A program made the translations under genes and the position numbers. This document shows positions 581 through 61,833 of a DNA stretch of 64,000 bases, one piece after another. The stretch is taken from assembly GCF_000373265.1 (NCBI RefSeq), contig NZ_KB890761.1, positions 310,001 through 374,000 on the forward strand. Direction: 5' to 3'. How positions within the stretch are numbered: position 1 is the stretch's first letter; each line of letters begins with the position of its first letter. Below the pieces are notes generated by a model. It saw nothing but the letters and a program-made list of their open reading frames with translations. It was not told the DNA's origin and searched no databases. Source of the DNA: Pontibacter roseus DSM 17521 (GTDB taxonomy: Bacteria > Bacteroidota > Bacteroidia > Cytophagales > Hymenobacteraceae).

Positions 581-1207
581 ATGAGCGTTACCATCATCCT
601 GATTATCCTTACGGTGGGCATCTCCTGGTATGCCTGGAAGAACCACGACCTGATGCACAACTGGATATTCCATCCATATGCCGTGGCGCGTGATAACTCC
701 TGGCACCGCTTTATCACTTCTGGCTTTCTGCATGCCGACTTCACGCACCTGTTCTTCAACATGTTTACGCTGTATTTCTTTGGCAACGCCGTGGAAATGA
801 CCTTCGGTGCCCTTTTCGGCACGACGACTGGCATACTTATCTACCTGCTGATATACCTGGGCGGCATCATCATCTCGGATATACCTACGTACCTCAAGCA
901 CCGCAACGACCCAGCCTACCGGGCTCTGGGAGCTTCGGGAGGGGTGGCCTCTGTCGTGTTCTCCAGTATCCTGTTCTACCCAACGCAGGACATTTGCCTC
1001 TACGCCATTCTCTGCATACCAGGCTTTATACTGGGTGTGCTATACCTGATGTACTCTTATTACCAGGGCAAGCGTATGGGTGACAACATCAACCACGACG
1101 CGCATTTCTACGGCGCCGTGTATGGGCTTATCATCAGCCTGGCACTGGTGCCAAAGGCAGGTCCGCTGTTCATTGAGCAAATCAGCAACTGGCGCATGTT
1201 TGGTTAA
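581..1207 (+). CDS. Rhomboid family intramembrane serine protease
   Basis: A 208-residue polytopic membrane protein. The rhomboid signature is complete: the HxxxN-type segment HLFFNMFTLYFFG (residues 56-68), the nucleophile motif GASG (117-120, Ser119) and the catalytic His in AHFYG (His175) near the C-terminus. The catalytic Ser-His pair would cut transmembrane segments of substrate proteins within the inner membrane. Length fits the minimal six-helix bacterial form with no extra domains. The ATG start directly follows a pyrimidine-rich stretch with no Shine-Dalgarno, normal for this phylum. It stands alone, 125 bases after the polyprenyl synthetase. A second, longer rhomboid lies at 16.7-17.8 kb; the two are clearly diverged, not a recent duplication. 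Substrate unknown. Confidence 0.92.
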   Translation: MSVTIILIILTVGISWYAWKNHDLMHNWIFHPYAVARDNSWHRFITSGFLHADFTHLFFNMFTLYFFGNAVEMTFGALFGTTTGILIYLLIYLGGIIISDIPTYLKHRNDPAYRALGASGGVASVVFSSILFYPTQDICLYAILCIPGFILGVLYLMYSYYQGKRMGDNINHDAHFYGAVYGLIISLALVPKAGPLFIEQISNWRMFG

Positions 1208-1307
1208 TTTTGCCATAATTGCACTTTATTAGTATCGTTTAAACCGATAGGTTTCCTCCTTCGGCAGTTCAAATCCGTATGAATGTTAGAGAGAAGCATT
1301 CATACGG

Positions 1308-1784
1308 ATGAAAACGAAACCAACATATACTGCCCTGTGGCTCCTGCTGATTGTATCATTATTTCTGTGTGCAGGGGCTGTTACAGCGCAGGACGCGGCA
1401 CAGGCGCAACGCACCACCATCATGCAGTACGCCATAGAAGAGCGGCCCGTGCTGGCAGACCTGCTGACGGCGGCAGGGCTGGCGCCCGCCCTGTCAGGCG
1501 ATACGCCCTATACCTTACTGGCGCCGCCCGAGGAAAGCCTGCGGAAACTGAAAGGGGAACCCACTGAGAAGATACGCTCCACCTTGGCCGCGCATATCAT
1601 CAAGGGCAGCTACAAAGAAAACGAGTTTAAGGAAGGGGCCGCTATACAGGACTACAGTGGCAACCAAGTGCACGTATGCCGTAAAAAAGGGCAGACCTTG
1701 CTCAATGGTGAAGGGTTGTCGGCTAACCATAGACAAATGCGCAATGGGGTGGTGCTGGAATTGAGCGGCCTGCTGGTGCCTTAA
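1308..1784 (+). CDS. Secreted fasciclin (FAS1) domain protein
   Basis: A 158-residue exported protein. Residues 1-27 form a signal peptide (basic start, leucine/valine core, ending AVTAQ). The rest is one FAS1 domain: a leading helix with LADLLTAAGLAPAL, then the hallmark H1-like segment YTLLAPPEESLRKL, the central AAHIIKGSY and a C-terminal hydrophobic strand VVLELSGLLVP. FAS1 domains are extracellular adhesion or matrix-binding modules; the partner here is unknown. Length is that of a single domain, so it probably acts as a free periplasmic or surface protein. A longer overlapping frame begins at 1283 but loses the signal peptide and all FAS1 features, so the ATG at 1308 is chosen. Confidence 0.82.
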   Translation: MKTKPTYTALWLLLIVSLFLCAGAVTAQDAAQAQRTTIMQYAIEERPVLADLLTAAGLAPALSGDTPYTLLAPPEESLRKLKGEPTEKIRSTLAAHIIKGSYKENEFKEGAAIQDYSGNQVHVCRKKGQTLLNGEGLSANHRQMRNGVVLELSGLLVP

Positions 1785-2537: not shown

Positions 2538-4316
2538 ATGACATTTGAGATAGGCGTCGTACTGGCTGTAATAGCGACTGCTGTGGTGCTTTTCGTAAGC
2601 GAGCGGCTCTCTATTGACACCACGGCCATCCTCATCATGTCTCTGTTCATGGCGCTGGGTATACTCACGCCCGCTGAGGGACTGGCCGGCTTCAGCAACC
2701 CGGCCACTATCACGGTGGCTTGCATGTTCGTCCTCAGTTCGGCCATTTTCAAGTCAGGGGCGCTCAGCAGTGTCGGTCTGCTGCTAACACGCGTCGCACG
2801 GAAGAATAGCCTTCTTTGCCTGTTGGCTGTCATGCTCATCGCAGGCCTGCTCTCCGCTTTCATCAATGATACGGCCGTGGTGGCGCTGCTTATGCCCGTC
2901 GTGATACAGGTGGCGCGCAGCACCCGCATCAGCCCTGCCAAGCTGCTGATGCCGCTTTCCTTCGGGGCGCTGCTCGGCGGCATCTGCACCCTGATTGGAA
3001 CCTCCACGAACATATTGGTGAGCGGTATAGCTGAGGCGCAGGGAGAGCCGCCTTTCGGAATGTTCGAGCTGACGGCGGCCGGCGTTGTCTTCCTGGTGGT
3101 AGGTGCTGCCTATATGCTGTTGGTGGGCCGCTTCCTGCTGCCTAGCCGCAAAATTCCCGAGGACCTGACCGAAGACTTCAACATGGGGGACTACCTCACA
3201 GAAATCATAATTCTGCCGGATTCGCCCTCAGTAGGTGTGCCGCTACGGAGCTCCAGCCTGGTGCAGAACCTGGACATAGACGTGTTGCAGATTACCCGAG
3301 ACAAGCACAGGTTGAAAGCCACTCCCTATACCATGCTGCGGGCCAACGATGTGCTCAAGGTGCGTTGCGACGTGGAGAAGCTGAAGAAGATAAAGGAAGA
3401 GAAGGGCATCGAGTTGAAATCAGAACGGAAGTCGGTTGGCAAGGAGCTGAATGGCGGCAGCTCCAAGCTTTACGAGGCACTCATCACCCCAAACTCTTAC
3501 ATAGTAGGCAAGTCGCTGAAGGAGCTGGATTTCAGGGCGCACAACCATGGTGCCACCGTAGTGGCCATCCGCCACCGCCATGAAATCCTCCACGAGAAAC
3601 TAACACATACCAAACTCTCCTCCGGTGACGTGCTGCTGATTGCCGCTGACAAGGAGCAGGCGGCGCATCTCAAGAGCAACGAAGACATCCTGCTTGTATC
3701 CGAGACAGAAAGAAGCCACTACGATTTCAGCAAAATCCTGCCTGTGCTGGCCATAGGTATAGGCGTGATCATAACAGCGGCCACAGGCCTGGCCCACATC
3801 GTGCTGAGCGCCCTGATAGGGGTGCTGCTGCTGGTGCTGTTCAAGTGCATCCGCCTGGATGAGGTATACAAGGCTATCGAGTGGAAAGTGATTTTCATGC
3901 TGGCCGGCGTGTTGTCGATGGGCACGGCACTGGAGAAGACGGGAGCTGCGAGCCTGTTGTCTGGCTTCCTGGTGAACTCCATCGGGGAGTATGGGCCGCA
4001 CGTGTTGCTCTCGGCCTTCTTTTTCATCACGTTCATGACGACGAACTTTATGTCGAACAACGCCACGGCGGCTTTGCTGGCTCCCATCGCGATTGTGACT
4101 GCCCAGGAGATGGGGGTGAGCGTGCGCCCTTTCCTGATGGCGGTCACCTTTGCCGCCTCGCTTAGCTTCATGACGCCCATGGGCTACCAGACCAACACCA
4201 TGATTTACGGCCCCGGCAACTACCGGTTCACAGATTACCTCCGGGTGGGCACACCGCTTAACATACTCCTCTGGATAGTGGCCTCCATCATCATTCCCTA
4301 CTTCTTCCCATTTTAG
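2538..4316 (+). CDS. SLC13-family permease with two RCK_C (TrkA-C) domains
   Basis: A 592-residue transporter of the DASS/SLC13 (ion transporter superfamily) type, predicted to import dicarboxylate, sulfate or similar anions across the inner membrane. The first ~200 residues are hydrophobic helices containing the sodium/substrate hairpin motif GTSTNILVSG. Residues ~205-390 are two soluble TrkA-C domains (the second with SLKELDFRAHNHGATVVAI and DVLLIAADKEQ). The second membrane half carries the mirror motif TTNFMSNNATAALLAP and ends TNTMIYGPG near the C-terminus. Inserted TrkA-C pairs are usual in the prokaryotic branch and are thought to sense ligands. Length is full. Substrate is not decidable from sequence; no assimilation genes are adjacent. 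Confidence 0.92.
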   Translation: MTFEIGVVLAVIATAVVLFVSERLSIDTTAILIMSLFMALGILTPAEGLAGFSNPATITVACMFVLSSAIFKSGALSSVGLLLTRVARKNSLLCLLAVMLIAGLLSAFINDTAVVALLMPVVIQVARSTRISPAKLLMPLSFGALLGGICTLIGTSTNILVSGIAEAQGEPPFGMFELTAAGVVFLVVGAAYMLLVGRFLLPSRKIPEDLTEDFNMGDYLTEIIILPDSPSVGVPLRSSSLVQNLDIDVLQITRDKHRLKATPYTMLRANDVLKVRCDVEKLKKIKEEKGIELKSERKSVGKELNGGSSKLYEALITPNSYIVGKSLKELDFRAHNHGATVVAIRHRHEILHEKLTHTKLSSGDVLLIAADKEQAAHLKSNEDILLVSETERSHYDFSKILPVLAIGIGVIITAATGLAHIVLSALIGVLLLVLFKCIRLDEVYKAIEWKVIFMLAGVLSMGTALEKTGAASLLSGFLVNSIGEYGPHVLLSAFFFITFMTTNFMSNNATAALLAPIAIVTAQEMGVSVRPFLMAVTFAASLSFMTPMGYQTNTMIYGPGNYRFTDYLRVGTPLNILLWIVASIIIPYFFPF

Positions 4317-4587: not shown

Positions 4588-6006
4588 ATGACGATTGCGA
4601 TTATAGGAGGGGGCCTGAGCGGCACTCTGACAGCCATACACCTTCTCAACCGCGCCTCTGGCGGCACTACCGTCTACCTGATAGAGCAGGACAGGTATAG
4701 GATGAACCGCGGCGTCGCCTATTCCAGCCAGTTGGCTTTCCAGCCACTCAACGTGCCCGCCTCGGCCATGAGCCTTTTCCCAGACAAACCGCAGGATTTC
4801 TACGAGTGGATTCTGGAACATCAGCACCGGTACAAAGGACAGTTGAAAGGCACGGTAAGCGCAACAGATTTTATCTCACGCTCTATTTTCGGCGATTACC
4901 TGAAGGCCCGGCTGCAGGACGCGGAATCAGGCGCTGCAAAAGGAGTGCGGCTCGTCAGGATTTATGACGAGGCGACTGCAGTCCGGAGGGAGGGAAAGGC
5001 GTTTCAAATCACGTTTAGGAGCAATGAAGCGATAACGGTAGAGAAAGCAGTCTTGGCGCCTGGCAACTTCCCGCCGGGGCATCTGCCTATACCTACCCAG
5101 GCATTCTACGGCAACAGCCGGTATGTGGCGTCGCCCTGGGCGGCCAAGGGCCTTTCCGATTTGCCGGCCGACGCGCCGGTGCTCCTCATTGGCTCGAGCC
5201 TCACGATGGTGGACCTGGTAGGCAGCCTGCAGGCACAGGGCCATAGAGGCAAGGTATACGTCGTGTCGCGGCATGGGCTGCTGCCGCAGCCGTTCGATGT
5301 GAATACGCCGCCATACCCCAGGCTGGCTATTCCGCAAAATGCCCCCTTGTCTGCCCTGGATTTGTTCCGCTTCGTCAGGAATGAGATAGGGCAAGCCGTC
5401 GCGAATGGCTATACCTGGCGGAGTGTGCTGGATGCGATGCGGGAGGATATACCGGCTATCTGGCAGGCGCTGCCGACACAGGAGAGGGAGCGCTTCCTGC
5501 GCCATATCCGGCCTTACTGGGAAACACACCGCCACCGCATGCCCGCCGCTTCCTATGACCTGCTCCAGCGCCTGCAGGCACAGGATAAGCTGGAGGTGCT
5601 GGCGGCCACCTTGATTGATATGCAGGATACAGGCGATGCGGTTCTTGTCACCATCAAAAGAAGAGGAGAGGCTATCCAGGAGAAGCTGGCGGTATACAGA
5701 GTCATCAACTGCACAGGCCCGCAATGCGACTTCACAAAAGTAGAAATGCCGCTCATGCGCCAATTACTGGCAGATGGCCTGCTGCAGCCTGACGCTTTTC
5801 GGTTGGGGTTGCTCACGTCGCACAATGGCACCCTGCTGGATGAGCGAGGCACACCCATCACCGGTCTGTTCACGCTGGGGCCACCGCGGAAGGCGATGCT
5901 ATACGAGTCCACGGCGCTGCGCGAGATACGCCAACAGGCCCGGGAACTGGTGCAGGAGCTGCTGCAGGGGGACAATGCACTCCTCAGAGCTGTTCAGGTA
6001 GCCTGA
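4588..6006 (+). CDS. FAD/NAD(P)-binding protein (NAD_binding_9 family)
   Basis: A 472-residue flavoprotein-like enzyme. The start is set at the second ATG (4588) because the protein then opens with MTIAIIGGGLSGTL, a Rossmann GxGxxG for FAD at the extreme N-terminus; an in-frame ATG at 4561 would add nine residues. A second dinucleotide site follows near residue 205 (VLLIGSSLTMVDLVG), with VINCTGP late in the protein, as in the HcaE/YdhS-like group of putative FAD oxidoreductases. Residue MSLFPDKPQDFYEWI segment is also typical of that group. It is probably cytosolic. The reaction is unknown. It is flanked by about 270 bases on the 5' side where I see no gene, and is not in an obvious operon. 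Confidence 0.85.
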   Translation: MTIAIIGGGLSGTLTAIHLLNRASGGTTVYLIEQDRYRMNRGVAYSSQLAFQPLNVPASAMSLFPDKPQDFYEWILEHQHRYKGQLKGTVSATDFISRSIFGDYLKARLQDAESGAAKGVRLVRIYDEATAVRREGKAFQITFRSNEAITVEKAVLAPGNFPPGHLPIPTQAFYGNSRYVASPWAAKGLSDLPADAPVLLIGSSLTMVDLVGSLQAQGHRGKVYVVSRHGLLPQPFDVNTPPYPRLAIPQNAPLSALDLFRFVRNEIGQAVANGYTWRSVLDAMREDIPAIWQALPTQERERFLRHIRPYWETHRHRMPAASYDLLQRLQAQDKLEVLAATLIDMQDTGDAVLVTIKRRGEAIQEKLAVYRVINCTGPQCDFTKVEMPLMRQLLADGLLQPDAFRLGLLTSHNGTLLDERGTPITGLFTLGPPRKAMLYESTALREIRQQARELVQELLQGDNALLRAVQVA

Positions 6007-6125
6007 TACTGCTCTGGCCAACAGCAGCAGGTATAGCCTGTATAGGAACAGCATGCTTCAGTAATGCAGATTCAGAAATACGGACCGTGCCAACGCCGCC
6101 TAAACCGGTACACATTGCATAGCCT

Positions 6126-6224: not shown

Positions 6225-6287
6225 ACCCAGCCAACGTTCAGGGCCCGCATGCGTCACAACTGGTATAGCGCATGCCCCCAGCTATAC

Positions 6288-8144
6288 CTACAGATACCCT
6301 TTTGCCTGCAGCGCAAACAGCTCGGCGTACTTGCCGTTCTGGGCCAGCAACTCCTCATGCGAACCTAGTTCCTTCAACTGCCCCTGCTCCAGAAACAGAA
6401 TGCGGTCAGCCATGCGCACCGTGGAGAAGCGGTGGGAGATGAGCACGGCGGTCTTGCCCGCAATCAACTCCGAGAAACGGATGAACACCTCATGCTCCGC
6501 GCGTGCATCCAGCGCCGAGGTAGGCTCATCCAAAATAAGCAGCTGCGCGTCACGCATGTAGGCCCGTGCTAATGCCACCTTCTGCCATTCCCCACCCGAC
6601 AATTCCACGCCTTTGTTGAAGCGCTTGCCCAGCACCTGCTCGTACCCATCGGGAAGGCGCTGTATCACCGGGTCTGCCAGGCTCTTCTGCGCCGAGCCCT
6701 GTATGCGCTCTTTGTCGCTGATGTTGCTGATTTGCCCAATGGCGATGTTGTCGGAGGCCGTCATCTGGAAGCGCACATAATCCTGGAAGATAATGCCCAC
6801 CTGGTGTCGCAAATCGTTGAGGTCGTACTCCCGCAGGTCGATTCCATCCAATAGTATTCGCCCCTCCGTGGGTTCGTACAGCCTTGCCAGCAGCTTCACC
6901 AAAGTGGTCTTGCCGGCTCCGTTCTCGCCCACCAGCGCCAGTTTCTCCCCGGCCCGCAAGTGGAAGGAGAGGTGGCGCACTGCCCAGCGCTCGCTGTTGT
7001 GGTACTTGAAGCCGACATCCTCGAACGTGAAGCCTTCCTGGATGGGCCGCGGCACTTGCAGTGGGTTGGCAGGCGGCGTAATCTGAGGCTGCAGCTCCAG
7101 AAAGTCGAAGAGGTCCTGCAGGTATAGCGCGCTCTCGGCAATCTGAGAAAAGCGCGTCATGATGCCCTGCAACAAACCGCGCATGCTGCTGAAGGAGCCC
7201 GCCAGGAACGTGAGCGTACCCACGGTGATGGCGCCTGCCACGGTCTGGAACAAAATGAAGATGTAGGCGCCGTAGTAGGCAAGCGTACCCAAGGCGGAGA
7301 GGGCGCTGCCCCACACCGCCCGCCGCACAATCAGTCCCTTGTTCAGGTCGTAGTAACGGTCAGAGAGCTGCTTGAAGCGGCTGGAGAGGAAGCCCGAAAG
7401 GTTGAAGGTCTTGATTTCCTTAGCCGTCTCGTCGCTGGCGCCGATGTAGCGCAGGTAGTCAAGCTCGCGACGCTCGGGCGTCCAGGAGCGGGAGAGGGAG
7501 TAGGTGCGTTCGTTGAAGTGCGTCTCGCCCAGGAAGGAAGGAATCACAGCCACCAGCAGGATGAGGATGAGCCAAGGGTTGAACGCAATCAGACCCACCG
7601 CCAGAAAAGCGATGGTGACCATGTCCTGCAGTTGCGAGAGTACCTGCGACATGAGCACCACCCGCGTCACCGTCTGCCGCCGCGCCCGCTCCAGCTTATC
7701 GTAGAAGGTGGCATCCTCGAACTGCGCCAGGTCCAGCTTGGCGGCGTGCTCAATGAGGGCCACGGAGGTTCTGTTCGAGAACAAATCGCCCAGCAGGCTG
7801 TCGAGCAGGGTGATGCCGCGGTTAATCAAATCAGAAACGAGGGCCAGCCCCAGTTCCACGGCCACCAGCAGCCACAGGAAACTCAAATCCCGCTCGCCCG
7901 TCACGTCAATCAGCCGGATGACCTCATCAATAATCAGCTTGCCCACATAAAGCATGGCCAACGGCAAAGAGGCCTTAATCAGGCGCAGCAGCATGTTCCC
8001 GACGGTCATCGCCTTGCTCGTCTCCCATATCAGCCGGAAAAACTTGGGCAGGTTCCGCAGGGCGCCCATCTGCTCCCGGAAGCTCTTCTTCTCCTGGTTG
8101 GCCTTGGAGGAGGCCGCTCTTGCTCCTTTTCTGATAGAATCCAT
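6288..8144 (-). CDS. ABC transporter, fused permease and ATP-binding protein
   Basis: A 618-residue half-transporter of the exporter type, which would work as a homodimer. Residues ~35-330 form the six-helix transmembrane domain; ~360-615 form the nucleotide-binding domain with Walker A GENGAGKTTLVKL, Q-loop at IIFQDY, signature LSGGEWQKVALARA, Walker B LLILDEPTSALD and the H-loop ISHRFSTV. The Q-loop region and the long charged N-terminus are typical of the lipid/peptide/multidrug exporter group. Substrate is unknown; no peptide or polysaccharide genes flank it. It converges with the flavoprotein gene and is divergent from the lipoprotein gene at 8335, the shared 190-base space carrying two CTATACCT motif copies (8175, 8208). 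Confidence 0.93.
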   Translation of the reverse strand: MDSIRKGARAASSKANQEKKSFREQMGALRNLPKFFRLIWETSKAMTVGNMLLRLIKASLPLAMLYVGKLIIDEVIRLIDVTGERDLSFLWLLVAVELGLALVSDLINRGITLLDSLLGDLFSNRTSVALIEHAAKLDLAQFEDATFYDKLERARRQTVTRVVLMSQVLSQLQDMVTIAFLAVGLIAFNPWLILILLVAVIPSFLGETHFNERTYSLSRSWTPERRELDYLRYIGASDETAKEIKTFNLSGFLSSRFKQLSDRYYDLNKGLIVRRAVWGSALSALGTLAYYGAYIFILFQTVAGAITVGTLTFLAGSFSSMRGLLQGIMTRFSQIAESALYLQDLFDFLELQPQITPPANPLQVPRPIQEGFTFEDVGFKYHNSERWAVRHLSFHLRAGEKLALVGENGAGKTTLVKLLARLYEPTEGRILLDGIDLREYDLNDLRHQVGIIFQDYVRFQMTASDNIAIGQISNISDKERIQGSAQKSLADPVIQRLPDGYEQVLGKRFNKGVELSGGEWQKVALARAYMRDAQLLILDEPTSALDARAEHEVFIRFSELIAGKTAVLISHRFSTVRMADRILFLEQGQLKELGSHEELLAQNGKYAELFALQAKGYL

Positions 8145-8334
8145 ACGCTATTTACGTGCCTGTTCCGGCAATAGCTATACCTGCCAGCGTGCACATTGTT
8201 CACGCCGCTATACCTGCCGCTGCACGCTTGAATATAGTATTTCGCTATATTTATTCACGGGCAGGCAGCAACAGACGCAATGCTGCACGATGTTTGAGGT
8301 CCAACCGTTCATCATCCACCCTGACAACCCGAAT

Positions 8335-9273
8335 ATGAAAAAACACTTACGCATAACCCTGTCGCTGACAGCCCTTTTGCTGGCAGGTTGCACCAGCGAC
8401 TTCTACCCGGCCGTGGACGAGCGGCTCACCACTCTACCTGTGCAACCCCATAACAAGGAAGTGGAAGTGTTCTTCGCGGGGGAGTGGCCGAAAGAGGAGT
8501 ATGTGAAGCTGGCTGCACTAGAAGCCCGAGGCGGTGAGAGCACTCCCTACATCACCTTGATTAACGACCTGAAAGCCAGAGCAAATGCCCATGGAGCCGA
8601 TGCGCTGGTGGTGCAGGGGAAAGGCCACATCACCGACGTGCACTCCTCCGCCGACCATATGGTGAGCACCACAGCCACCAGCACCCTGACAGGTATAGCC
8701 ATCAAGTACAGAAAGAACCTGGACCTGGGGCTGATGCCTAAGTTGCAACACATAGAACTGTATGATTCCAAAGTCCAGGCTTTCAAGCCACTGCTGAACC
8801 TGCAGCTGGGCGTAGGGGGCGACATCACAGGAAAAGAAGAACTGCTCCAGAATGCCTTTAACTTCTACAAGGTATACGTGCAGGAGTACACCCCGCGCAA
8901 CCTGTTGCAGGAGCACGGCCGCAATTGGCAGGAGCGGCGGCAGGAAGGCTTTGTTGTGGAGCGGCAGCTATCCTTCGACGGCATTTTGCAGAAGCGCATG
9001 CGGTTCAACTACAACGCGCACCGGCAGTTGCAGCAGGTGGTTATAGAAAAATCGGGCAGGCAGCCAGAGGAGGTGCAGTATACCTATAATGAGGCCGGGC
9101 AGCTCACAACGCGCAGCATCAACCGGGATAAGAAGCCATACCTGCGCGAGGACTATACCTACGATGCGGACGGCAAGGTAAGCGAGGTGCAGCTTCACAT
9201 CGCCACGAAGAACGGGCAGGAGCCGCTGCTGAGAAGCACCTTCGCCTACTACACCTGGGAAGAAATCCGATAG
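8335..9273 (+). CDS. Lipoprotein with YD-like repeat strands
   Basis: A 312-residue predicted lipoprotein. The start at 8335 is fixed by a lipoprotein signal peptide: MKKHLRITLSLTALLLAGC, with the lipobox LAGC and Cys19 as lipidated residue. An in-frame extension to 7954 overlaps the divergent ABC gene and would bury the signal, so it is rejected. The first half is an unknown globular domain; the second half has antiparallel-type repeats resembling YD/RHS strands (RMRFNYNAHRQLQ, VQYTYNEAGQLTTR, DYTYDADGKVSEV). Such repeats often sit in surface proteins of this phylum. Function unknown. It starts a run of exported-protein genes on the same strand (YwqK/TonB-C at 9.4 kb, NTF2-like at 10.2 kb). 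Confidence 0.78.
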   Translation: MKKHLRITLSLTALLLAGCTSDFYPAVDERLTTLPVQPHNKEVEVFFAGEWPKEEYVKLAALEARGGESTPYITLINDLKARANAHGADALVVQGKGHITDVHSSADHMVSTTATSTLTGIAIKYRKNLDLGLMPKLQHIELYDSKVQAFKPLLNLQLGVGGDITGKEELLQNAFNFYKVYVQEYTPRNLLQEHGRNWQERRQEGFVVERQLSFDGILQKRMRFNYNAHRQLQQVVIEKSGRQPEEVQYTYNEAGQLTTRSINRDKKPYLREDYTYDADGKVSEVQLHIATKNGQEPLLRSTFAYYTWEEIR

Positions 9274-9398
9274 GTTATACCTGCCAGGCCAACGTACGGT
9301 ACTTCTTTTTCGGAGAGGCTATACCTGTGTGCTGTCGTAGTGTGGAAAGAATCTATATATTTAGCCTGCAATATCAGGATATAACTATTCAACAGATT

Positions 9399-10247: not shown

Positions 10248-10760
10248 ATGAAGAAGCCTCTGCTTGCCCTGCTGTTTACCATTGGCCTAATCTATACCTC
10301 CTTCGCCCAGGCAAAAGTGCCGGCTGAGGACGTCGCCACCATAGAGGCCATCACGGCTGCCGGCCTGAAGATAATCTCTGGTCCGAAGGGGCAGAAGCGG
10401 GACATGGAGCAGTTCAAGGCGCTTTTCCTACCCGATGCCCAGATGGGTGGCGTGTTCCACCGGGGCGACAGCAGCTTTGTGCGCATCACCACCGTGGCTC
10501 AGTTCGCGGAGCGCAACGGACCTTTTTATGAGCAGAATGGCTTTTATGAGAGCCAGCTGGGGCTGCGCATCGAGCGCTTTGGTAACCTAGCCACCGCCTT
10601 CCAGACGTATGACACTCGCTATACCCCGCAAGGGAAGGTAGAGGCCCGTGGCGTCAACACCTACCAGTTGGTGTATGACAAGGGCCGCTGGTGGATTGCC
10701 AGCCTGCTCTTCACCCCCGAGACGCCGCAGCAGCCTATACCTGAAAAGTATCTGAAATAG
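10248..10760 (+). CDS. Secreted NTF2-like (SnoaL-fold) protein
   Basis: A 170-residue exported protein. Residues 1-20 are a signal peptide ending SFAQA. The mature part matches the NTF2-like cone fold: an N-terminal helix region (EAITAAGLKIISGPKGQKR), a helix with MEQFKALFLPDAQ, strands around RIERFGNLATAFQTYDTRY and the final GRWWIASLLFTPE strand, which is diagnostic for this superfamily. Members act as small-molecule binding proteins or isomerase-like enzymes; none of the catalytic residues that would identify a reaction can be named. It is 18 bases downstream of the TonB-C gene, so probably co-transcribed, and 22 bases before the next membrane protein. Confidence 0.82.
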   Translation: MKKPLLALLFTIGLIYTSFAQAKVPAEDVATIEAITAAGLKIISGPKGQKRDMEQFKALFLPDAQMGGVFHRGDSSFVRITTVAQFAERNGPFYEQNGFYESQLGLRIERFGNLATAFQTYDTRYTPQGKVEARGVNTYQLVYDKGRWWIASLLFTPETPQQPIPEKYLK

Positions 10761-10782: not shown

Positions 10783-11235
10783 ATGACGCGGTACCTGTTC
10801 TTCTTCCTGACCGGCTTTGCCCACGCCCTCATCATCCTGCTCTACTTTGATTTGTCGGGCGAGGACGCCTTGTTCTACCGCACAGTCGGGTTGGCGGGAG
10901 CCGTTCCATTGTTCGCGCTGGCTTCGTGGCTGACGCTGTTCAGTATGCGGGCCGGTGCCGCAGTTGCCTCTGTCTGCCTGCTTGTGCTGCTCTACTGGAA
11001 CGTGGCCGCCGCCCAACAAACGCTGCAGTGGGGCGCTTCCCTTGACACCATCTTACTGATGATACACGTGGTGCTCGGGGCGCTGGCCTTGGTGGCCTTC
11101 ATCACCAGCCTCCGCTATACCTTCCGGAGCAGGCTCTCCTGGCTGACAGGCACACCTAGGCCCAGCTATGTGCTCAAAGTGCTGCTGGCCGCTATACCTG
11201 TCACAGTAGCCGTAGCCTATTTCCTGTACGCCTGA
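10783..11235 (+). CDS. Four-helix integral membrane protein, unknown
   Basis: A 150-residue protein that is almost wholly hydrophobic, with four predicted membrane helices (around residues 1-20, 35-55, 58-80 and 85-105) plus a fifth weak segment at the C-terminus (LAAIPVTVAVAYFLYA). No family is recognised. It follows the NTF2-like gene by 22 bases and ends the exported-protein run. A hairpin starts just after the stop codon. Codon usage is like the neighbours, and two motif copies (CTATACCT near 11118 and 11192) fall within the gene. Being short and lacking polar signature residues, no function can be proposed. Confidence 0.75.
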   Translation: MTRYLFFFLTGFAHALIILLYFDLSGEDALFYRTVGLAGAVPLFALASWLTLFSMRAGAAVASVCLLVLLYWNVAAAQQTLQWGASLDTILLMIHVVLGALALVAFITSLRYTFRSRLSWLTGTPRPSYVLKVLLAAIPVTVAVAYFLYA

Positions 11236-11836: not shown

Positions 11837-12051
11837 CGTTCTGTCATTTCGACGATAGGAGAAATCTTATACCCGACGGGCCGCACATCCAGCGCCAGCG
11901 CAGATGCGGCTTTTGTCAGTATGGCGAGGAAGGGAACAGAGGAAAACGCCAGGTATAGATTGTCCCGCATGTCTCACCGCTGGTTACCGCTGCGTTCGCA
12001 CCGGCGGTGGCTGTGGTAACAGATTCCTCCTATCGTCGGAATGACAGAACG
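11837..12051. repeat. 215-bp element with 32-bp imperfect inverted ends (REP/MITE-like)
   Basis: The left end (11837-11868) begins CGTTCTGTCATTTCGACGAT and the right end (12020-12051) is its reverse complement at 29 of 32 positions. The interior has no open frame worth calling and carries one AGGTATAG copy. A related single arm occurs at 50241-50266, so the end sequence is dispersed. No transposase is present and no target duplication is evident. It fits a non-autonomous or palindromic repeat family. Confidence 0.7.
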
Positions 12052-12250
12052 TGTATGGGGATGACCGGGTCCAACCACCCCTGCCCCTCCTCGTCATTTT
12101 CGAGGGCCCTACCCCCAGGCGGGGAGTCTGCCTTAACTGCTGGTAAGGAATAGGCGTAGTAGTAGCTGCTGCTAATGACCGATGGGAGGTATAGCAAGAC
12201 ATACTTATAACCACTACTATGCAAACTGCCAATGGCTGCAAGCCTGCTTC

Positions 12251-48929: not shown

Positions 48930-49032
48930 GCTGCATCAGCCACGACTATTGAACAATGCCTGCCATACCTTGAGTCCGCCCCTAGGCAAGAGCCGGAGGC
49001 GGACTTAGGCTGCTGTTGATTGCTATACCTGC

Positions 49033-50330: not shown

Positions 50331-52166
50331 TTACTCTACCGTCACAGACTTCGCCAGGTTGCGGGGCTGGTCTACGTTGCAACCGCGCATCACCGCGATG
50401 TGGTAAGACAGGAGTTGCAACGGAATAACCGACAACAACGGCACCAGGTGCTCGCTTGTCTCCGGAATCTCAATTACATAGTCCGCCATGGCTGGTATAG
50501 TGGTATCGCCTTCGGTCACAATGGCTATGATTCTGCCTTTGCGCGCCTTCACCTCCTGTATGTTCGACACGATTTTCTCGTATGAGCTGTCCTTGGTAGC
50601 AATCACCACCACCGGCATATGCTCGTCAATCAAAGCGATTGGGCCATGCTTCATCTCAGCAGCCGGGTAGCCTTCCGCGTGTATATAGGAAATCTCTTTC
50701 AGCTTGAGTGCGCCTTCCAGGGCAACCGGGAAGTTGTACCCACGGCCCAGGTATAGGAAGTTGGTCGCATCTTTGAAGGTTGCCGAAATCTCCTGAATCT
50801 GCACGTCAAGCAGCAAGGCACGCTCCACTTTAGCCGGGATGCTCTCCAGTTCCACCATCAGTTGGTGCAGCTTGGTCGTCTCCAGGGTGCCGCGCTTGCT
50901 TCCGATAATCATGGCAATCAGGGACAGCACCGTTACCTGTGCTGTGAAGGCCTTCGTGCTGGCAACGCCAATCTCCGGACCGGCGTGGGTATAGGCACCC
51001 GCATCGGTGGCGCGGGCAATAGAGGAACCCACCACGTTGCAGATGCCGAAGATGGTGGCGCCTTTGGACTTCGCTAATTCAAGGGCTGCCAGGGTGTCAG
51101 CGGTTTCACCAGACTGTGAAATGGCAATCACGATGTCACGCTCGCTGATGATGGGATTACGATAGCGGAACTCAGAGGCATATTCTACCTCCACAGGTAT
51201 ACGCGCCAGGTCCTCAATCAGGTATTCGGCTACCAGACCGGCATGCCAGGAAGTACCGCAGGCCACAATGAGGATACGCTCCGCATTCACGAACTTGTTT
51301 TCGAACTCGCGGATGCCGCCCATCATCAGGTGGTTGCTTTCGGCAATCATGCGGCCGCGCATGCTGTCCAGGATGGAGCGTGGCTGCTCAAAAATCTCTT
51401 TCAGCATGAAATGCGGGTAACCACCTTTCTCGATGGACTCGAGGGCCATTTCCAGGCGCTGCACATAAGGCGTCTGCACCACGTCTTCCTTCGTACGTAT
51501 TTCCAACTCACCGTCACGGATAACCACCAGTTCAAAGTCGTTCACATACACTACGTCATTGGTGTATTCAATGATAGGAGTGGCGTCAGAGGCCAGGAAG
51601 TACTCGCCTTCGCCTATGCCTACCACCAGCGGGCTGCCTTTGCGGGCGGCAATCAGGGTGTTCTGGTCTTCTTTGGAAAGCACCACGATGGCGTAGGCGC
51701 CTACCACCTCATGCAATGCCAGGCGAACCGCCTCTGGCAGGGAGCACTTGCTGTTTTGCTGGATGTCTTCAATCAGGTTGATGAATACCTCCGAGTCCGT
51801 CTCTGACTGGAAGGTATGTCCTTTCTCTAGTAGAAGTGTTTTTAGGGCTGCGTAGTTTTCAATGATGCCGTTATGGATAATCGCTATTCGCTTAGAGCTC
51901 GAGTAATGCGGGTGTGCATTCACATCGTTCGGCTCCCCGTGTGTGGCCCAACGGGTATGGCCCATGCCTATGTGGCCATGTACATCCTTGTCTACAATGA
52001 ATTCCTCAAGGTCGCTTACCTTGCCTTTTCTTTTGTAGACGCTCAGGTCTCCGTTCATCAGTGCTATGCCTGCGCTGTCATAGCCCCTGTACTCAAGTCG
52101 TTTCAAGCCTTTCAAAATGATAGGGCAAGCGTCTCTATGCCCTACGTAAGCTACAATTCCACACAT
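50331..52166 (-). CDS. glmS: Glutamine--fructose-6-phosphate transaminase (isomerising)
   Basis: A 611-residue enzyme that makes glucosamine-6-phosphate for peptidoglycan and LPS. The N-terminal glutaminase has the catalytic Cys2 in MCGIVAYVGH, GMGHTRWATHGEPN and GTHPH-like HPHYSSSKRIAIIHNGIIENY; two SIS domains follow (ILIVACGTSWHAGLVAEYLI; DIVIAISQSGETADTLAAL; ALKLKEISYIHAEGYPAAEMKHGPIALI). The end ..NLAKSVTVE is typical. Length normal. A terminator lies on each side: one at 50279 and one at 52192 that ends the DUF4270 transcript running into it. glmS ribozyme riboswitch is not expected in this phylum and none is seen. Confidence 0.97.
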   Translation of the reverse strand: MCGIVAYVGHRDACPIILKGLKRLEYRGYDSAGIALMNGDLSVYKRKGKVSDLEEFIVDKDVHGHIGMGHTRWATHGEPNDVNAHPHYSSSKRIAIIHNGIIENYAALKTLLLEKGHTFQSETDSEVFINLIEDIQQNSKCSLPEAVRLALHEVVGAYAIVVLSKEDQNTLIAARKGSPLVVGIGEGEYFLASDATPIIEYTNDVVYVNDFELVVIRDGELEIRTKEDVVQTPYVQRLEMALESIEKGGYPHFMLKEIFEQPRSILDSMRGRMIAESNHLMMGGIREFENKFVNAERILIVACGTSWHAGLVAEYLIEDLARIPVEVEYASEFRYRNPIISERDIVIAISQSGETADTLAALELAKSKGATIFGICNVVGSSIARATDAGAYTHAGPEIGVASTKAFTAQVTVLSLIAMIIGSKRGTLETTKLHQLMVELESIPAKVERALLLDVQIQEISATFKDATNFLYLGRGYNFPVALEGALKLKEISYIHAEGYPAAEMKHGPIALIDEHMPVVVIATKDSSYEKIVSNIQEVKARKGRIIAIVTEGDTTIPAMADYVIEIPETSEHLVPLLSVIPLQLLSYHIAVMRGCNVDQPRNLAKSVTVE

Positions 52167-54549: not shown

Positions 54550-55404
54550 ATGCAAGTTATAGAACAGGTCGCGTCAATCAGAACCATTGTGCAGGCGTTG
54601 CGCTGCAGCGGCAAGCGCATCGGCTTCATCCCTACCATGGGTGCACTGCACGAGGGGCACCTGCAGCTGATGCGTGCTTCGGCCCGCGAGAACCACGTGA
54701 CCATCTGCAGCATCTTCGTGAACCCCACTCAGTTCAACAACGCCTCCGACTATAAGCTATACCCCCGCACGTTGGAACAGGATACCAGCCTGCTGCAGAC
54801 CGTAGGCTGCGATTACCTGTTCGCTCCGTCTGCGGAGGAGGTATACCCACAACAGTCGCTGCTGCGCTTTAGTTTCGGGGAGCTGGAGACGGTAATGGAG
54901 GGCACGCACCGGCCGGGGCACTTCCATGGCGTGGCCACCATCGTAGGCAAGCTCTTCAACCTGGTGCAGCCGCACAAGGCCTACTTCGGGCAGAAGGACC
55001 TGCAGCAGGTGGCGGTGGTGCGGCAACTGGTGCAGGGCCTGGGCTTTGACCTGGAGCTGGTGTGCCACCCGACGGTGCGCGAGGCTGATGGGCTAGCCAT
55101 GTCGTCGCGCAACAAGCGGCTCAACCCGGCGCAGCGGCAGCTCGCTACGCAGCTTTACAAAGTGCTGCAGCTGGCCAAGCAGGATTTGAAGCAGAAGCCG
55201 CTGGCAGGTATAAAAAGTGAGGTGGCTCATTACATGCAGCAGGTGGACGAGCTTTCGCTGGAGTACTTTGAGATTGCCGACCCCTATACCTTGCAGCCGG
55301 TGGAGGACCTGGGCCAGCGGGACGAGGTGGCGCTCTGCATTGCCGCTTATGTGGGGGAGGTGCGGCTCATCGACAACATCGTGGTGAATCTAAACGAAAT
55401 ATAA
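54550..55404 (+). CDS. panC: Pantoate--beta-alanine ligase (pantothenate synthetase)
   Basis: A 284-residue enzyme of pantothenate synthesis that joins pantoate and beta-alanine with ATP. Motifs: GFIPTMGALHEGHLQLMRA (ATP-binding HEGH), NPTQFNNASDYKLYPRTL, AYFGQKDLQQVAVVRQLV and EADGLAMSSRNKRLNP (KMSKS-like). The ATG at 54550 is used; a TTG at 54526 is in frame but overlaps the promoter region. panD follows 99 bases later, giving the vitamin unit panC-panD. Coenzyme A from this route continues through coaX at 29.9 kb. Confidence 0.96.
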   Translation: MQVIEQVASIRTIVQALRCSGKRIGFIPTMGALHEGHLQLMRASARENHVTICSIFVNPTQFNNASDYKLYPRTLEQDTSLLQTVGCDYLFAPSAEEVYPQQSLLRFSFGELETVMEGTHRPGHFHGVATIVGKLFNLVQPHKAYFGQKDLQQVAVVRQLVQGLGFDLELVCHPTVREADGLAMSSRNKRLNPAQRQLATQLYKVLQLAKQDLKQKPLAGIKSEVAHYMQQVDELSLEYFEIADPYTLQPVEDLGQRDEVALCIAAYVGEVRLIDNIVVNLNEI

Positions 55405-55859: not shown

Positions 55860-56903
55860 ATGAGAAAACTGCTCTCCTTTCTGAAGTATAGCCTGCTTTT
55901 GGGGCTCTCCGCATTCTTGATGTGGTATGCGCTGAAGGAGCTTGACTTTGAGAAACTGTGGGCAGAACTGCAGAGCATCAGCTACGGTTGGCTGCTCCTG
56001 TCGCTGTTGCTGGGTGTGGCGGCCTATTTGAGCCGGGCCTACCGGTGGTACATGCAAATAAAGCCTACGGGCTACTCCCCCTCGCTTAGAAATACTTACA
56101 ATGCCATGATGGTGGGCTATGTGGCCAATCTGGTGCTACCGCGCATGGGAGAGGTGGTGCGTTGCAGCATGTTGCGCCGTACAGACGGCCTGCCCGTCAA
56201 CAAAGGCTTTGGCACGGTCATAGCCGAGCGCCTCATCGACATGGTCATGCTGGCCATCTTCCTGGGGCTGACCTTCCTGCTGGAGCTCGAACGCGTGCGC
56301 AACTTCCTCTTGGGCCTCTTCACTGACAAGTACGACAGCATGGAGCAGAGCCTTGGGTCGCTATACTTAGTGGGCGGCATCGTGATGGCGGTAGGGCTGG
56401 TGTTTCTGGCGCTGGGCCTGCTATACCTCAAAAAGCTGCAACAGAACGCCTTCTTCATGAAAGCGGTGGGCTTTGTGAAAGGTATGCTGCAGGGGGTGTT
56501 CAGCATCTCCAAAATAGACAACCAGTTCGTCTTTTGGGGCCATACCATCTTCGTGTGGGGGATGTATTACGGCATGAGCCTCGTGGTGTTCTACGCCATG
56601 CCGGCCACCTCCGGCCTTTCGCCTGTGGCGGGGCTGTCGGTGCTGGTGGTAGGCAGTTTAGGTATGGCGGCGCCGGTGCAAGGTGGCGTGGGCGTATACC
56701 ACTTGCTTGTGCAGACCACCTTGCTACTGTATGGAGTTCCCAAGGAGGCGGGCATGGCCTATGCCCTGGTGGCCCATACCTCGCAGACACTTTTGGTTGT
56801 TGTGATGGGAGTGATTAGCTTTATGTCCATCATGCTGCAGCGCCCAGTGGCTGCAGGTGAAGTCGCTGAAGCTAACGCACACATCCATGAATACGAAAGA
56901 TAA
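55860..56903 (+). CDS. Flippase-like membrane protein (lysylphosphatidylglycerol synthase TM region, UPF0104)
   Basis: A 347-residue polytopic membrane protein with about eight spans. Hallmarks are [76 protein letters not shown] and the final [15 protein letters not shown], all typical of the flippase-like half of LPG synthases. It has no C-terminal synthetase domain, so it is a stand-alone flippase or lipid-handling protein. It follows panD by eight bases and its end overlaps rfaE2 by 17 bases, so panC-panD-flippase-rfaE2 form one operon. Confidence 0.9.
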
Positions 56904-58299: not shown

Positions 58300-59439
58300 A
58301 TGAATTTCCAATTAACAGAAGAACACTTGGCAGTACAGGCTGCCGCCCGTGAATTTGCACAGACAGAGCTGTTGCCAGGCGTGATAGAACGTGATGAGCA
58401 TCAGAAATTCCCTGCTGAGCAAATCAAGAAGATGGGAGAGCTAGGATTCCTAGGTATGATGGTTGACCCCAAGTATAATGGGGGCGGCATGGATACCATT
58501 TCCTATGTATTGGCCATGGAAGAAATCTCCAAAGTGGATGCTTCCGCTTCTGTAGTAATGTCTGTGAACAACTCGCTTGTGTGCTGGGGCCTGGAGAAAT
58601 ATGGCAATGAGGAGCAGAAGCAGAAGTACCTGACCCGCCTGGCAACAGGCGAAATCATAGGCGCCTTCTGCCTTTCTGAACCGGAGGCTGGTTCTGACGC
58701 CACTTCACAGCGTACCACCGCTGAGGACAAAGGTGACTACTACCTGCTCAACGGCACCAAGAACTGGATTACCAACGGCAGCACAGCCTCAGTATACCTG
58801 GTAATTGCCCAGACGGATGTGGCGAAAGGCCACCGCGGCATCAACGCCCTCATTGTAGAGCGTGGCATGGAAGGCTTCCAGATTGGCCCGAAAGAGAACA
58901 AACTGGGAATACGCGGCTCCGACACGCATTCTTTGATGTTCACTGACGTAAAAGTACCAAAGGAGAACCGCATTGGCGAAGATGGTTTCGGCTTCAAGTT
59001 CGCCATGTCTACGCTGGCGGGTGGCCGCATCGGTATAGCGGCGCAGGCGCTAGGTATAGCATCAGGCGCCTATGAGCTGGCCGTGAAGTATTCCAAAGAG
59101 CGCAAGGCGTTCGGTGTGGAGATTGCGAAGCACCAGGCCATTCAGTTCAAACTGGCCGATATGGCAACCAACATTGAGGCGGCTCGCCTCCTGTGCCTGC
59201 AGGCAGCCCATGACAAGGACATGCACCAGGATTATGGCAAATCAGGAGCTATGGCGAAACTATTTGCATCCAAGGTAGCCATGGATACAACCATAGAGGC
59301 GGTGCAGGTACACGGCGGCTACGGTTTTGTGAAAGAATACCATGTGGAGCGTTTAATGCGTGATGCCAAAATTACACAAATCTACGAAGGCACTTCTGAG
59401 ATACAGAAAATAGTAATTTCAAGAGAATTGTTAAAGTAA
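58300..59439 (+). CDS. Acyl-CoA dehydrogenase
   Basis: A 379-residue FAD-dependent enzyme that starts fatty-acid beta-oxidation by alpha,beta-dehydrogenation of acyl-CoA. Signature FCLSEPEAGSD (FAD/ substrate), NGTKNWITNG, GRIGIAAQALGIASGAYELAV and the C-terminal YEGTSEIQKIVISREL fit the short-/medium-chain group; the catalytic glutamate lies in the late IYEGTSEI region in this subgroup. Length typical. It is monocistronic with its own promoter; a ~160-base AT-rich spacer follows. Chain-length preference cannot be stated. Confidence 0.95.
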   Translation: MNFQLTEEHLAVQAAAREFAQTELLPGVIERDEHQKFPAEQIKKMGELGFLGMMVDPKYNGGGMDTISYVLAMEEISKVDASASVVMSVNNSLVCWGLEKYGNEEQKQKYLTRLATGEIIGAFCLSEPEAGSDATSQRTTAEDKGDYYLLNGTKNWITNGSTASVYLVIAQTDVAKGHRGINALIVERGMEGFQIGPKENKLGIRGSDTHSLMFTDVKVPKENRIGEDGFGFKFAMSTLAGGRIGIAAQALGIASGAYELAVKYSKERKAFGVEIAKHQAIQFKLADMATNIEAARLLCLQAAHDKDMHQDYGKSGAMAKLFASKVAMDTTIEAVQVHGGYGFVKEYHVERLMRDAKITQIYEGTSEIQKIVISRELLK

Positions 59440-60521: not shown

Positions 60522-61271
60522 GGCAACATTATAAGAAGCAATCAAGTGAGAAACCTCGGCCAGAAAGCCGGGGTTTTTTTCTATGTGGTTGCCTATGACC
60601 AGCACGTCGGCGCCCGCCTCCAGTGCGGCCGCTGCTTTATCGGCAGTGTTAATGCCGCCCCCCACTATCACCGGCACGTCCACCACCTCGCGCACGGCCT
60701 TTATCATATCGGCACTGATGGGGTGCATGGCACCGCTCCCGCCGTCGAGGTAGATGTAGCGCAGGCCCAGCAGTTCGCCAGCCATGGCGGTGCAGGCGGC
60801 AATGCCGGGTTTGTCATACGGTATAGGCGTGGTGCCGCTCATGTACGAAGCAGTGGTCTGACGGCCGGTGTCCACCAGCATGTAGCCGGTAGGGTACACC
60901 TGCAGTTGGCTCGTCTTGAGTATGGGGGCTGACAGCACGTGCTGCCCGATGAGAAAATCCGGGTTGCGGCCCGAGATGAGGGAGAGGAGCAGAATACCAT
61001 CGGCCTGCTTGTCGATGTGCAGGCTGTTGCTTGGGAAAAGGATAACAGGTATGCTGCTGTTCTCTTTGATAAGCCGGATGATGGAGGCTTGATTATCGGT
61101 GGTGATGAGGCTGCCTCCCACAAAGAAGAAGTCAACCTGGTGTGTTTCGCTCAGGGCAAGCAGGTTCAGGCAGGAAGCCTCGTCAAGGTTGTCGGGGTCG
61201 AGCAGTACCGCGAAGTGCTTCCTGCCTGGTTCATGTTGCTTTTGTCTGTTGCGAAGGTTGTTAAACGGCAT
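60504..61271 (-). CDS. Geranylgeranylglyceryl/heptaprenylglyceryl phosphate synthase family (PcrB)
   Basis: A 255-residue TIM-barrel prenyltransferase that joins a polyprenyl diphosphate to sn-glycerol-1-phosphate. Motifs: HFAVLLDPDNLDE, DFFFVGGSLITTD, IPVILFPSNSLHIDKQADGI, GYMLVDTGRQTTASYMSGT and IYLDGGSGAMHPISADMIKAV, GGGINTADKAAAALEAGAD. In archaea this makes ether lipid; in bacteria a heptaprenyl version is known. ATG 61271 gives an 11-base overlap with the upstream gene. A polyprenyl synthetase at the window start could be a supplier, but the loci are far apart. Convergent with AraC. Confidence 0.93.
   Translation of the reverse strand: MPFNNLRNRQKQHEPGRKHFAVLLDPDNLDEASCLNLLALSETHQVDFFFVGGSLITTDNQASIIRLIKENSSIPVILFPSNSLHIDKQADGILLLSLISGRNPDFLIGQHVLSAPILKTSQLQVYPTGYMLVDTGRQTTASYMSGTTPIPYDKPGIAACTAMAGELLGLRYIYLDGGSGAMHPISADMIKAVREVVDVPVIVGGGINTADKAAAALEAGADVLVIGNHIEKNPGFLAEVSHLIASYNVALNVHR
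60551..60580 (+). terminator. Terminator of the AraC gene, inside the convergent gene
   Basis: AAACCTCGGC pairs with GCCGGGGTTT (one T-G pair) across CAGAAA and runs into seven T's. It lies 30 bases beyond the AraC stop and within the last codons of the minus-strand PcrB gene, so the same bases code for a protein on one strand and end a transcript on the other. Confidence 0.85.
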
Positions 61272-61833
61272 CCTCTTGTGGAACGGTATACTCAATGGTT
61301 TCTATTTCAGTCACCTCAATGGGTGCTGCTGCAATATCGCTATTTTTAGAAACACTGTTTAAGTATTCTTCCACCTTTTTGGTCATGTACAGGAGCAGCA
61401 GCGTGGTGAGTTGCTGCGTGAGCATCTGCGCCATCTCTGATTTCATGAAGCCTTGCGCCCTGCCTGTTGGATGCCCCCGCTCCGCCAAGGTATAGTTCAT
61501 GCGCTCAGAAGCCAAGGTATAGTCATCTTCCTGCTCATGTATGAGGGAATCATATTGTACCCTGCCCGCCGACGGGGTGTAGTAGCTACCTTTCAGACTG
61601 GCCTCTTCGTTTCTCTTGAGCTTTTTGCTTTTTTTTTTGCTGCCGCCGAACATGCTCCGGATGAGCAGGCCCGCCACCAGGATGCCGCCGGCTATGGCTA
61701 CTTTCTTGCCAATCTGCTGGCCCTGGCTTTTGATTTGGTTCACATCACCCATCAAGGCGTTTTTGTACTCTTCTTTCTGGCGCTCTAGCAATTCCCGTTC
61801 GCTGTCAAACAAGGGGTTCTTTGTCTCGCTCAT
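61261..61833 (-). CDS. YqjD-like membrane-anchored protein
   Basis: A 190-residue protein. A charged helical N-terminus (ERELLERQKEEYKNALMGDV) leads to one membrane span (VAIAGGILVAGLLIRSMF), a strongly basic patch SKKKSKKLKRNEE and a low-complexity middle. A hydrophobic C-terminal helix follows (LTTLLLLYMTKKVEEYL). The pairing with the following holin-like gene looks like the YqjD/YqjE pair, which in other bacteria are ribosome- and membrane-associated. It overlaps pcrB by 11 bases and the YqjE-like gene by four, so it lies in a three-gene unit. Function is unproven. Confidence 0.72.
   Translation of the reverse strand: MSETKNPLFDSERELLERQKEEYKNALMGDVNQIKSQGQQIGKKVAIAGGILVAGLLIRSMFGGSKKKSKKLKRNEEASLKGSYYTPSAGRVQYDSLIHEQEDDYTLASERMNYTLAERGHPTGRAQGFMKSEMAQMLTQQLTTLLLLYMTKKVEEYLNSVSKNSDIAAAPIEVTEIETIEYTVPQEDAV

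Follow-up and report, generated by a model that had tools for sequence, protein, structure and literature searches.

Dialects of a genome-wide octamer in Pontibacter and its possible role as a chromosomal self-tag

Introduction

Sequence-tagged DNA uptake is established in the Neisseriaceae and the Pasteurellaceae, and the tags of both families are read by type IV pilus-type machinery. This paper concerns the octamer AGGTATAG (CTATACCT on the opposite strand), which recurs throughout the genome of Pontibacter roseus DSM 17521, a member of the Bacteroidota, and was picked out in a sequence-only reading of a 64-kb stretch of that genome (contig NZ_KB890761.1, positions 310,001 to 374,000; here called the window). 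Our main finding, which lay beyond the reach of that reading, is that the word varies between species of a single genus.

As described in PMC3630211, DNA uptake sequences (DUS) reach 943 to 5,918 copies per genome in the Neisseriaceae, and the genome of S. muelleri holds two DUS dialects. With the DUS of that account the Pontibacter word shares a short non-palindromic form, a density of about one per kb and a total of hundreds to thousands of copies, as well as variants differing at one or a few bases that track the species tree, the occasional genome with two dialects, and some relatives without the word. It differs in its phylum and in the word itself, and also in that the full pilus ATPase was not found, a ComP-type receptor is improbable and the uptake role is one that we infer. 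Like the uptake signal sequences (USS) of the Pasteurellaceae as treated in PMC1939737, the Pontibacter word would accumulate by mutation and biased uptake, and near-matches of it are also enriched; unlike them it is another word and is accompanied by no type IV pilus ATPase found in our searches.

The highly iterated palindrome HIP1, as portrayed in PMC4390886, is likewise strongly over-represented at about one copy per kb and is replaced by other words in single strains, sporadically; it is tied to methyltransferases and is the same across its phylum, whereas the Pontibacter word is non-palindromic and changes within a genus. The sequence-only reading had set the word beside HIP1 and the FtsK-orienting polar sequences (KOPS), a fair comparison. 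Chi and KOPS are over-represented, species-specific octamers oriented along replication; unlike these, the Pontibacter word is balanced in orientation in the relative where this was counted (G030) and favours intergenic DNA. Within the Bacteroidota, Riemerella is naturally transformed by a pilus-free route in which a surface protein with the domain DUF5689 takes part (PMC8459023), and a preference for its own DNA is reported for Riemerella columbina (PMC7965970). Going by these two accounts, Pontibacter resembles Riemerella as a member of the Bacteroidota with ComEC, an HHH protein and no well-known uptake machinery, and is unlike it in having a strong genome word, where the Riemerella authors report none, and in that DUF5689 does not track the word.

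Abundance of the word in the window and the genome

The window holds 62 exact copies (29 AGGTATAG and 33 CTATACCT), which reproduces exactly the count first made by hand. One hundred dinucleotide shuffles of the window gave a mean of 1.02 copies and a maximum of 4, while an order-3 Markov model predicts 6.03; the resulting 10.3-fold excess is the highest order-3 enrichment among window octamers with at least 15 occurrences, so enrichment does not fall near 1 under Markov correction, a possibility that had been raised beforehand. The excess of about 30-fold claimed earlier stands as over-representation, its figure having a base-composition basis; it becomes 10-fold by the order-3 model and about 42-fold relative to the reversed word genome-wide. 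The motif is not confined to the window either. Over the 12 contigs and 4.58 Mb of the genome there are 4,500 copies, 2,304 forward and 2,196 reverse, which agrees with the balanced orientation already proposed, and only 108 (57 + 51) of the reversed word.

Across 371 kb sampled from this genome the octamer was observed 351 times with 32 expected, at a density of about one copy per kb over the sampled chromosome. The top decamers were CAGGTATAGC (101 vs 3.7 expected) and AGGTATAGCC (76 vs 2.5 expected), and the window alone has 19 copies of CAGGTATAGC against a shuffle mean of 0.14. The full preference around the core word is about CAGGTATAGC, and preference is scant past one or two bases on each side. 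The palindromic form AGGTATACCT occurred only 10 times in the P. roseus sample. A small contig that reads as N and another of 5.4 kb were excluded from the placement, spacing, tile and palindrome counts given below, and the palindrome, flank and tile-spread counts also exclude an island stretch (L015). Literature searches on the octamer and on uptake sequences in Bacteroidetes or Pontibacter, with preprints and most subscription journals outside their reach, brought up no description of this word among the papers listed.

Dialects across the genus

Dialects were assigned in 50 Pontibacter genomes from whole-genome counts and word discovery in 20 to 60 kb per genome (counts only for G049; 20 kb each for G027 and G041). 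Dialect A, AGGTATAG, is strong in 12 genomes, with 2,823 to 5,222 copies and a ratio to the reversed word of 23 to 79, which for the same octamer is at most 6 in the other 38. Dialect B, AAGTATAA, is strong in 20 genomes (2,246 to 7,030 copies) and dialect C, AACTATAG, in five (6,288 to 8,208 copies); AAGTATAA and AACTATAG are both strong in G026 and G032, and the AACTATAG genome G046 retains 2,125 copies of AAGTATAA. Any two of these three words differ by two bases. Eleven genomes are without a strong word (G002, G006, G023, G024, G025, G027, G033, G036, G041, G042 and G045, the G006 assembly being 87% complete), and two of them, G036 and G042, have the weak words GGTATGGC and ATATATGG. These 11 genomes average 5.71 Mb (4.9-6.5) and the 39 with a strong word 4.59 Mb (3.8-5.5), a difference with p 4e-6 from rounded sizes and with phylogeny ignored.

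A tree of five proteins from the 50 Pontibacter genomes and three outgroups, built by a quick method (supports are SH-aLRT values), unites the 12 AGGTATAG genomes in a single clade (support 100). A look for the same word in other Pontibacter had been suggested at the outset, and it thus finds the word strong in one clade and altered words elsewhere. The AGGTATAG clade adjoins the AAGTATAA genomes G005 (support 81) and G043 (95), and the AACTATAG and mixed genomes together form a single clade of seven (support 100). Because AAGTATAA genomes sit on both main branches and at the base (support 93 at the fork above G029), AAGTATAA is most simply taken as the ancestral word, which would have been switched twice and lost a few times. 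At least three changes on the tree are needed to account for the 11 genomes that lack a strong word.

Origin and persistence of copies

Eighteen window-genome sites were laid out in an alignment of 20 kb from 21 genomes, and 12 of them are common to at least six dialect-A genomes. The shared sites lie mostly in gapless coding alignment, where other genomes have near-words and the adjoining codons vary. Fifteen sites are well kept, and at these the B-genome consensus departs from the A word at seven of its eight positions, by nine kinds of change. Columns that carry the A word carry the B word in B genomes in 7 of 47 cases, compared with 0.3% at shifted columns, which indicates that some sites were rewritten in place. 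In these alignments copies therefore arise by point substitution in place.

Constraint was measured in the same 20-kb region on codons with an unchanged amino acid, relative to the same codons elsewhere. The A word in A genomes kept the same codon at a rate of 0.85 vs 0.56 expected (26 sites) and the B word in B genomes at 0.65 vs 0.47 (40 sites); one of two controls, the A word in B genomes, gave 0.41 vs 0.39 (13 sites). Word copies are thus apparently held against synonymous change.

These data bear on a HIP1-like origin, in which a methyltransferase acts at a site in the word, whose frequency is then raised, without selection for function, by mutation bias or by methyl-directed mismatch repair. 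Such an origin has in its favour the comparable density of about one per kb and the replacement of HIP1 in single strains described in PMC4390886. We regard it as improbable given that the words are non-palindromic, with the few copies of AGGTATACCT noted above, that the nine kinds of change relative to B genomes are spread over seven of eight positions in place of one directed change, and that the dialects persist as clades, whereas the replaced HIP words of that paper are sporadic.

Placement, orientation and spacing

Genes in the sampled stretches were called by a simple script using open reading frames and codon usage, with some genes missed and the intergenic densities that follow somewhat inflated. 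In a 364-kb sample of P. roseus that includes the window, 350 copies were placed, 147 of them outside called genes (1.6 per kb) and 203 inside (0.74 per kb). G030, a single-contig relative of dialect C, has 800 copies in 460 kb, at 4.5 per kb outside called genes and 1.0 inside, so that the ratio of outside to inside density is 2.2 in P. roseus and 4.3 in G030. Intergenic density in G030 is highest between convergent gene pairs (6.4 per kb) and lowest between divergent ones (2.4 per kb). The 203 copies within P. roseus genes comprise 89 sense and 114 antisense and use all frames; of the six classes by strand and frame, one has 4 copies and each of the others between 14 and 71, the Gly-Ile frame accounting for 71 of the 89 sense copies. 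The statement in the sequence-only reading that copies occur on both strands, in several frames and often in intergenic gaps is therefore borne out. Its proviso that Gly-Ile-Ala and Tyr-Thr codon usage might explain the motif is not, because 147 of 350 copies fall outside called genes and the remainder are on both strands in all frames. Codon usage or an artefact of the window was rejected as the origin on the strength of the genome-wide count and of this intergenic and all-frame placement.

For the same reason we consider it very improbable that the word is a by-product of codon usage, and give equally little credence to a dispersed mobile repeat of the repetitive extragenic palindrome (REP/RAYT) or miniature inverted-repeat transposable element (MITE) kind. 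A mobile repeat would suit the close pairs and the tandem copies, overlapping at offset 6, that were seen in places. Against one, the flanks have little in common past a base or two, and in aligned genes sites were gained by substitution without insertion; a REP or MITE repeat was rejected, there being no conserved unit longer than the word and no gain by insertion.

Orientation relative to replication was counted in G030, where 20 stretches split by skew in guanine and cytosine (GC) gave 365 vs 345 copies, or 246 vs 226 without 119 palindromic copies. There is no clear replication-strand polarity in this relative, the one examined by replication arm, and a replication-oriented signal was rejected for it on these counts. 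The number of copies per 5-kb tile has a variance/mean ratio of 1.03 to 1.34 in dialects A and B, near Poisson, and of 2.62 in dialect C, where copies are clustered.

A site for a nucleoid-associated or segregation protein that needs frequent copies was also considered. Coverage of the sampled chromosome at about one copy per kb would agree with it, and 460 kb of the dialect-C genome G030 contain 132 copies of the perfect palindrome AACTATAGTT, a common form there that would suit a dimer. Even so it is doubtful, since G030 lacks the strand polarity of KOPS-like roles, spacing is no more even than random in A and B and is clustered in C, and the absence of a strong word from 11 of 50 genomes, through at least three changes, would be odd for a core nucleoid function.

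Several further features of arrangement were seen. Samples of dialects A and B contain few copies of the palindromes AGGTATACCT and AAGTATACTT (10 and 12). In B-dialect stretches some inverted word pairs, for instance 34 bases apart, enclose terminator-like hairpins; inverted pairs that form terminators are known for the Neisseria uptake sequences. In P. roseus (G000), contig C1 168983-170574 has several word copies at multiples of 264 bases, which suggests a gene with 88-residue repeats.

The copies in the window are given in Table 1. The copies singled out by position in the sequence-only reading are real, with small shifts: those given as 25960-25980 start at 25951 and 25972, and that given as 38452 starts at 38451.

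Table 1. Exact copies of AGGTATAG in the window, with strand and context.
Position	Strand	Context
1040..1047	-	
1508..1515	-	
3755..3762	+	
4693..4700	+	
5087..5094	-	
5409..5416	-	
6029..6036	+	outside called genes
6282..6289	-	3' end of ABC-transporter-like gene 6288-8144
7120..7127	+	
8175..8182	-	paired with 8208
8208..8215	-	paired with 8175
8691..8698	+	
9153..9160	-	
9319..9326	-	outside called genes
10292..10299	-	
10735..10742	-	
11115..11122	-	
11192..11199	-	
11951..11958	+	outside called genes
12187..12194	+	outside called genes
16342..16349	+	
16879..16886	-	
17545..17552	+	
17920..17927	+	outside called genes
19298..19305	-	3' end of gene 19304-20680
20455..20462	-	
20619..20626	+	
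21390..21397	+	outside called genes
25708..25715	+	
25951..25958	-	outside called genes; paired with 25972
25972..25979	-	outside called genes; paired with 25951
26545..26552	+	overlapping tandem with 26551
26551..26558	+	overlapping tandem with 26545
27912..27919	-	outside called genes
29747..29754	+	window genome only, among genomes aligned there
30333..30340	+	kept in 11/12 dialect-A genomes
32753..32760	-	window genome only
32875..32882	+	within GldE-like gene
33866..33873	-	within GldE-like gene; same site is AAGTATAA in G003 and G007
36036..36043	-	within PpiC-like gene; kept in 11/12 dialect-A genomes
36949..36956	-	same site is AAGTATAA in sister species G005 and G043
38451..38458	-	outside called genes; window genome only
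38895..38902	+	within recJ; kept in 12/12 dialect-A genomes
38991..38998	+	within recJ
43747..43754	+	outside called genes
43992..43999	+	outside called genes
44747..44754	-	
47499..47506	-	outside called genes
48282..48289	-	
48359..48366	-	
48860..48867	+	outside called genes
49023..49030	-	outside called genes
49542..49549	-	
49923..49930	-	
50025..50032	+	
50138..50145	+	
50749..50756	+	
55284..55291	-	
56421..56428	-	
59052..59059	+	
61488..61495	+	
61515..61522	+	

Scarcity in mobile DNA

One 20-kb stretch of the P. roseus genome (L015, 40% GC) has only 2 copies of the word. Its genes code for an integrase and a cytosine methylase, for primase-like proteins and for an MmeI-type restriction-modification protein, and it is the one island annotated in this genome. 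The word is scarce in this mobile island, as would be expected of DUS or USS in newly acquired DNA. The seven 5-kb tiles of lowest GC, some of them from L015, average 1.0 copies vs 5.5 in typical tiles; low-GC tiles are poor in the word although the word is AT-rich. The same contrast is weaker in G030, at 5.0 to 5.5 vs 9.0 copies.

Uptake and recombination genes

No full ATPase of a type IV pilus or type II secretion system was found in the 50 Pontibacter genomes by a PF00437 family search, in which at most 31 first-look candidates were scored per genome and pilin families were not searched. Matches were partial only (38 to 66 of 370 model positions), with 3 of 50 genomes just over the cut-off, which 13 of 14 control genomes passed. 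A receptor of the Neisseria ComP type, a pilin, is unlikely because of this result.

The family of the DNA channel ComEC was found in all 50 genomes; in G008 and G021 a stop interrupts its frame, and in G017 the frame is shorter (561 residues). Among the matches listed, HHH_3 proteins occur in all 50, and 49 have an intact HHH frame of 304 to 346 residues, the exception being G021, where it is broken. In G021, a single contig (L273, L274), the ComEC gene and the gene of the 314-residue HHH type are therefore both broken, and this genome has the lowest ratio of AAGTATAA to the reversed word of any B genome (12.9, against 22.0 for the second lowest of the 20), which fits decay of the word after loss of uptake. 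DUF5689 was rejected as a genetic switch for its patchy distribution and its Sus-like gene surroundings: where the neighbours of short-protein loci could be read, their translations pointed to SusD-like, SusC-like or glycan-like genes.

A PF12705 gene with a frame of about 970-1,018 residues is intact in all 50 genomes and, from its size and domain, probably encodes an AddB-like nuclease. ComEC, HHH_3 and this gene were rejected as the switch, all being found in 50 of 50 genomes and so not discriminating. The AddB-like gene does provide a possible reader for a Chi-like site, at which the word would stop or redirect a nuclease of the RecBCD/AddAB type on the cell's own DNA and mark it as self in repair, the dialects following the reading subunit. 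Scarcity in foreign DNA would be expected of a Chi site as well. We think such a role unlikely, for G030 (dialect C) shows no replication polarity with or without its palindromes, the word is several-fold denser than E. coli Chi and, unlike it, is enriched outside genes in both genomes measured, and AddB-like genes remain intact in genomes without a strong word.

Words in other lineages

Neither AGGTATAG nor AAGTATAA exceeds about 2.4 times the reversed word in 49 relatives of other genera. For Hymenobacter, which the sequence-only reading had proposed for comparison, the search covered three named genomes and used only another word. Word discovery in samples of 20-60 kb found different words in some of these lineages. 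Spirosoma terrae (L041) has TGCTACGT and Fibrivirga algicola (L067) has AGGTACGT, and the pattern WGSTACGT occurs 4,137 and 4,276 times in their genomes, where the reversed pattern occurs 637 and 573 times. A search for WGSTACGT in eleven other named genomes gave 0.5 to 2.1 times the reversed pattern, the two other Spirosoma genomes among them, S. luteum and S. fluviale, being near background. In G052, from another genus of the same family (L245, L286, L287), CCCTAGGT occurs 40 times in 60 kb vs 1.5 expected, with unrelated flanks, and the best nonamer is CCCTAGGTC; CCCTAGGT was not seen in 20 kb of G057, of the same genus as G052. Such words therefore differ between and within genera. A dispersed palindrome of another kind, CGCATGCG, was seen in G050 (L243, L290), with 12 copies in the first 20 kb vs 0.4 expected, together with a repeat containing AAAACGCTAT.

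Interpretation and significance

Taken as a set, the properties of the word match DUS with dialects better than they match HIP1, Chi, KOPS, a mobile repeat or codon usage. Our preferred interpretation, held with moderate confidence, is that the word may be a chromosomal self-tag which works like DUS and is probably read by a pilus-free uptake system. We favour it because of the dialects on the tree, the origin of copies by substitution, the synonymous constraint, the scarcity in the island and the lack of strand polarity in G030. Among the four roles put forward in the sequence-only reading, the same dialects, substitution origin and island scarcity favour the uptake-like tag, which is itself a self-spreading sequence bias; a nucleoid-protein site and a methylase-linked site are less favoured. 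Membership of DUS or USS is not claimed, as pilus machinery was not found and the uptake role is one that we infer from genome comparison.

In the proposed mechanism, a DNA-binding protein, most likely part of an uptake apparatus, would prefer fragments that bear the word, and these would enter and recombine more often. Point mutations that improve a copy would then spread and lost copies would be replaced, to an equilibrium of about one per kb. If the preference of the reader shifted, the genome would be rewritten copy by copy, from AAGTATAA to AGGTATAG in one clade and to AACTATAG in another; if the preference were lost, the words would decay. Since a ComP-type pilin is unlikely, such a reader would be part of uptake without a pilus, as in Riemerella.

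Several observations weigh against such a self-tag. To our knowledge every proven DUS or USS system uses type IV pilus-type machinery, and this trait was not encountered in Pontibacter, where a full ATPase was found in 0 of 50 genomes. No reader was found among the families examined in these genomes (PF00437, ComEC, HHH_3, PF12705 and DUF5689). Competence genes fail to track the word, as ComEC and HHH genes are also intact in the 11 genomes that have no strong one; G008, with a stop in its ComEC frame, has 5,041 copies of the A word; and DUF5689, in only 22 of 50 genomes, does not match word presence. Six of the 18 aligned sites occur in the window genome alone, and the second control for synonymous constraint, the B word in A genomes, is also above expectation (0.88 vs 0.46, at only 4 sites). 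The k-mer search reported by the Riemerella columbina authors yielded, in their account, only A-rich words (PMC7965970), and the literature searched contained no uptake experiment on Pontibacter.

A wider proposal is more tentative and falls a little short of an even chance: that Bacteroidota tag their own DNA without type IV pili, with a surface or periplasmic reader of a clade-specific word favouring the DNA of kin. Within one genus this reader would have changed its preference two or more times and would have been weakened or lost on several occasions, and CCCTAGGTC, TGCTACGT and AGGTACGT would be other such words. If this is true, self-tagging has more than one origin and more than one kind of reader. 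The 50 Pontibacter species form a rare natural series, running from an ancestral-looking word through two derived dialects and two genomes that mix dialects to several in which no word is strong, and the reader can therefore be sought by comparison of gene content and tested by word swapping. A self-tag of this kind could explain limited gene flow between close species, and it may help to transform bacteria that are hard to manipulate.

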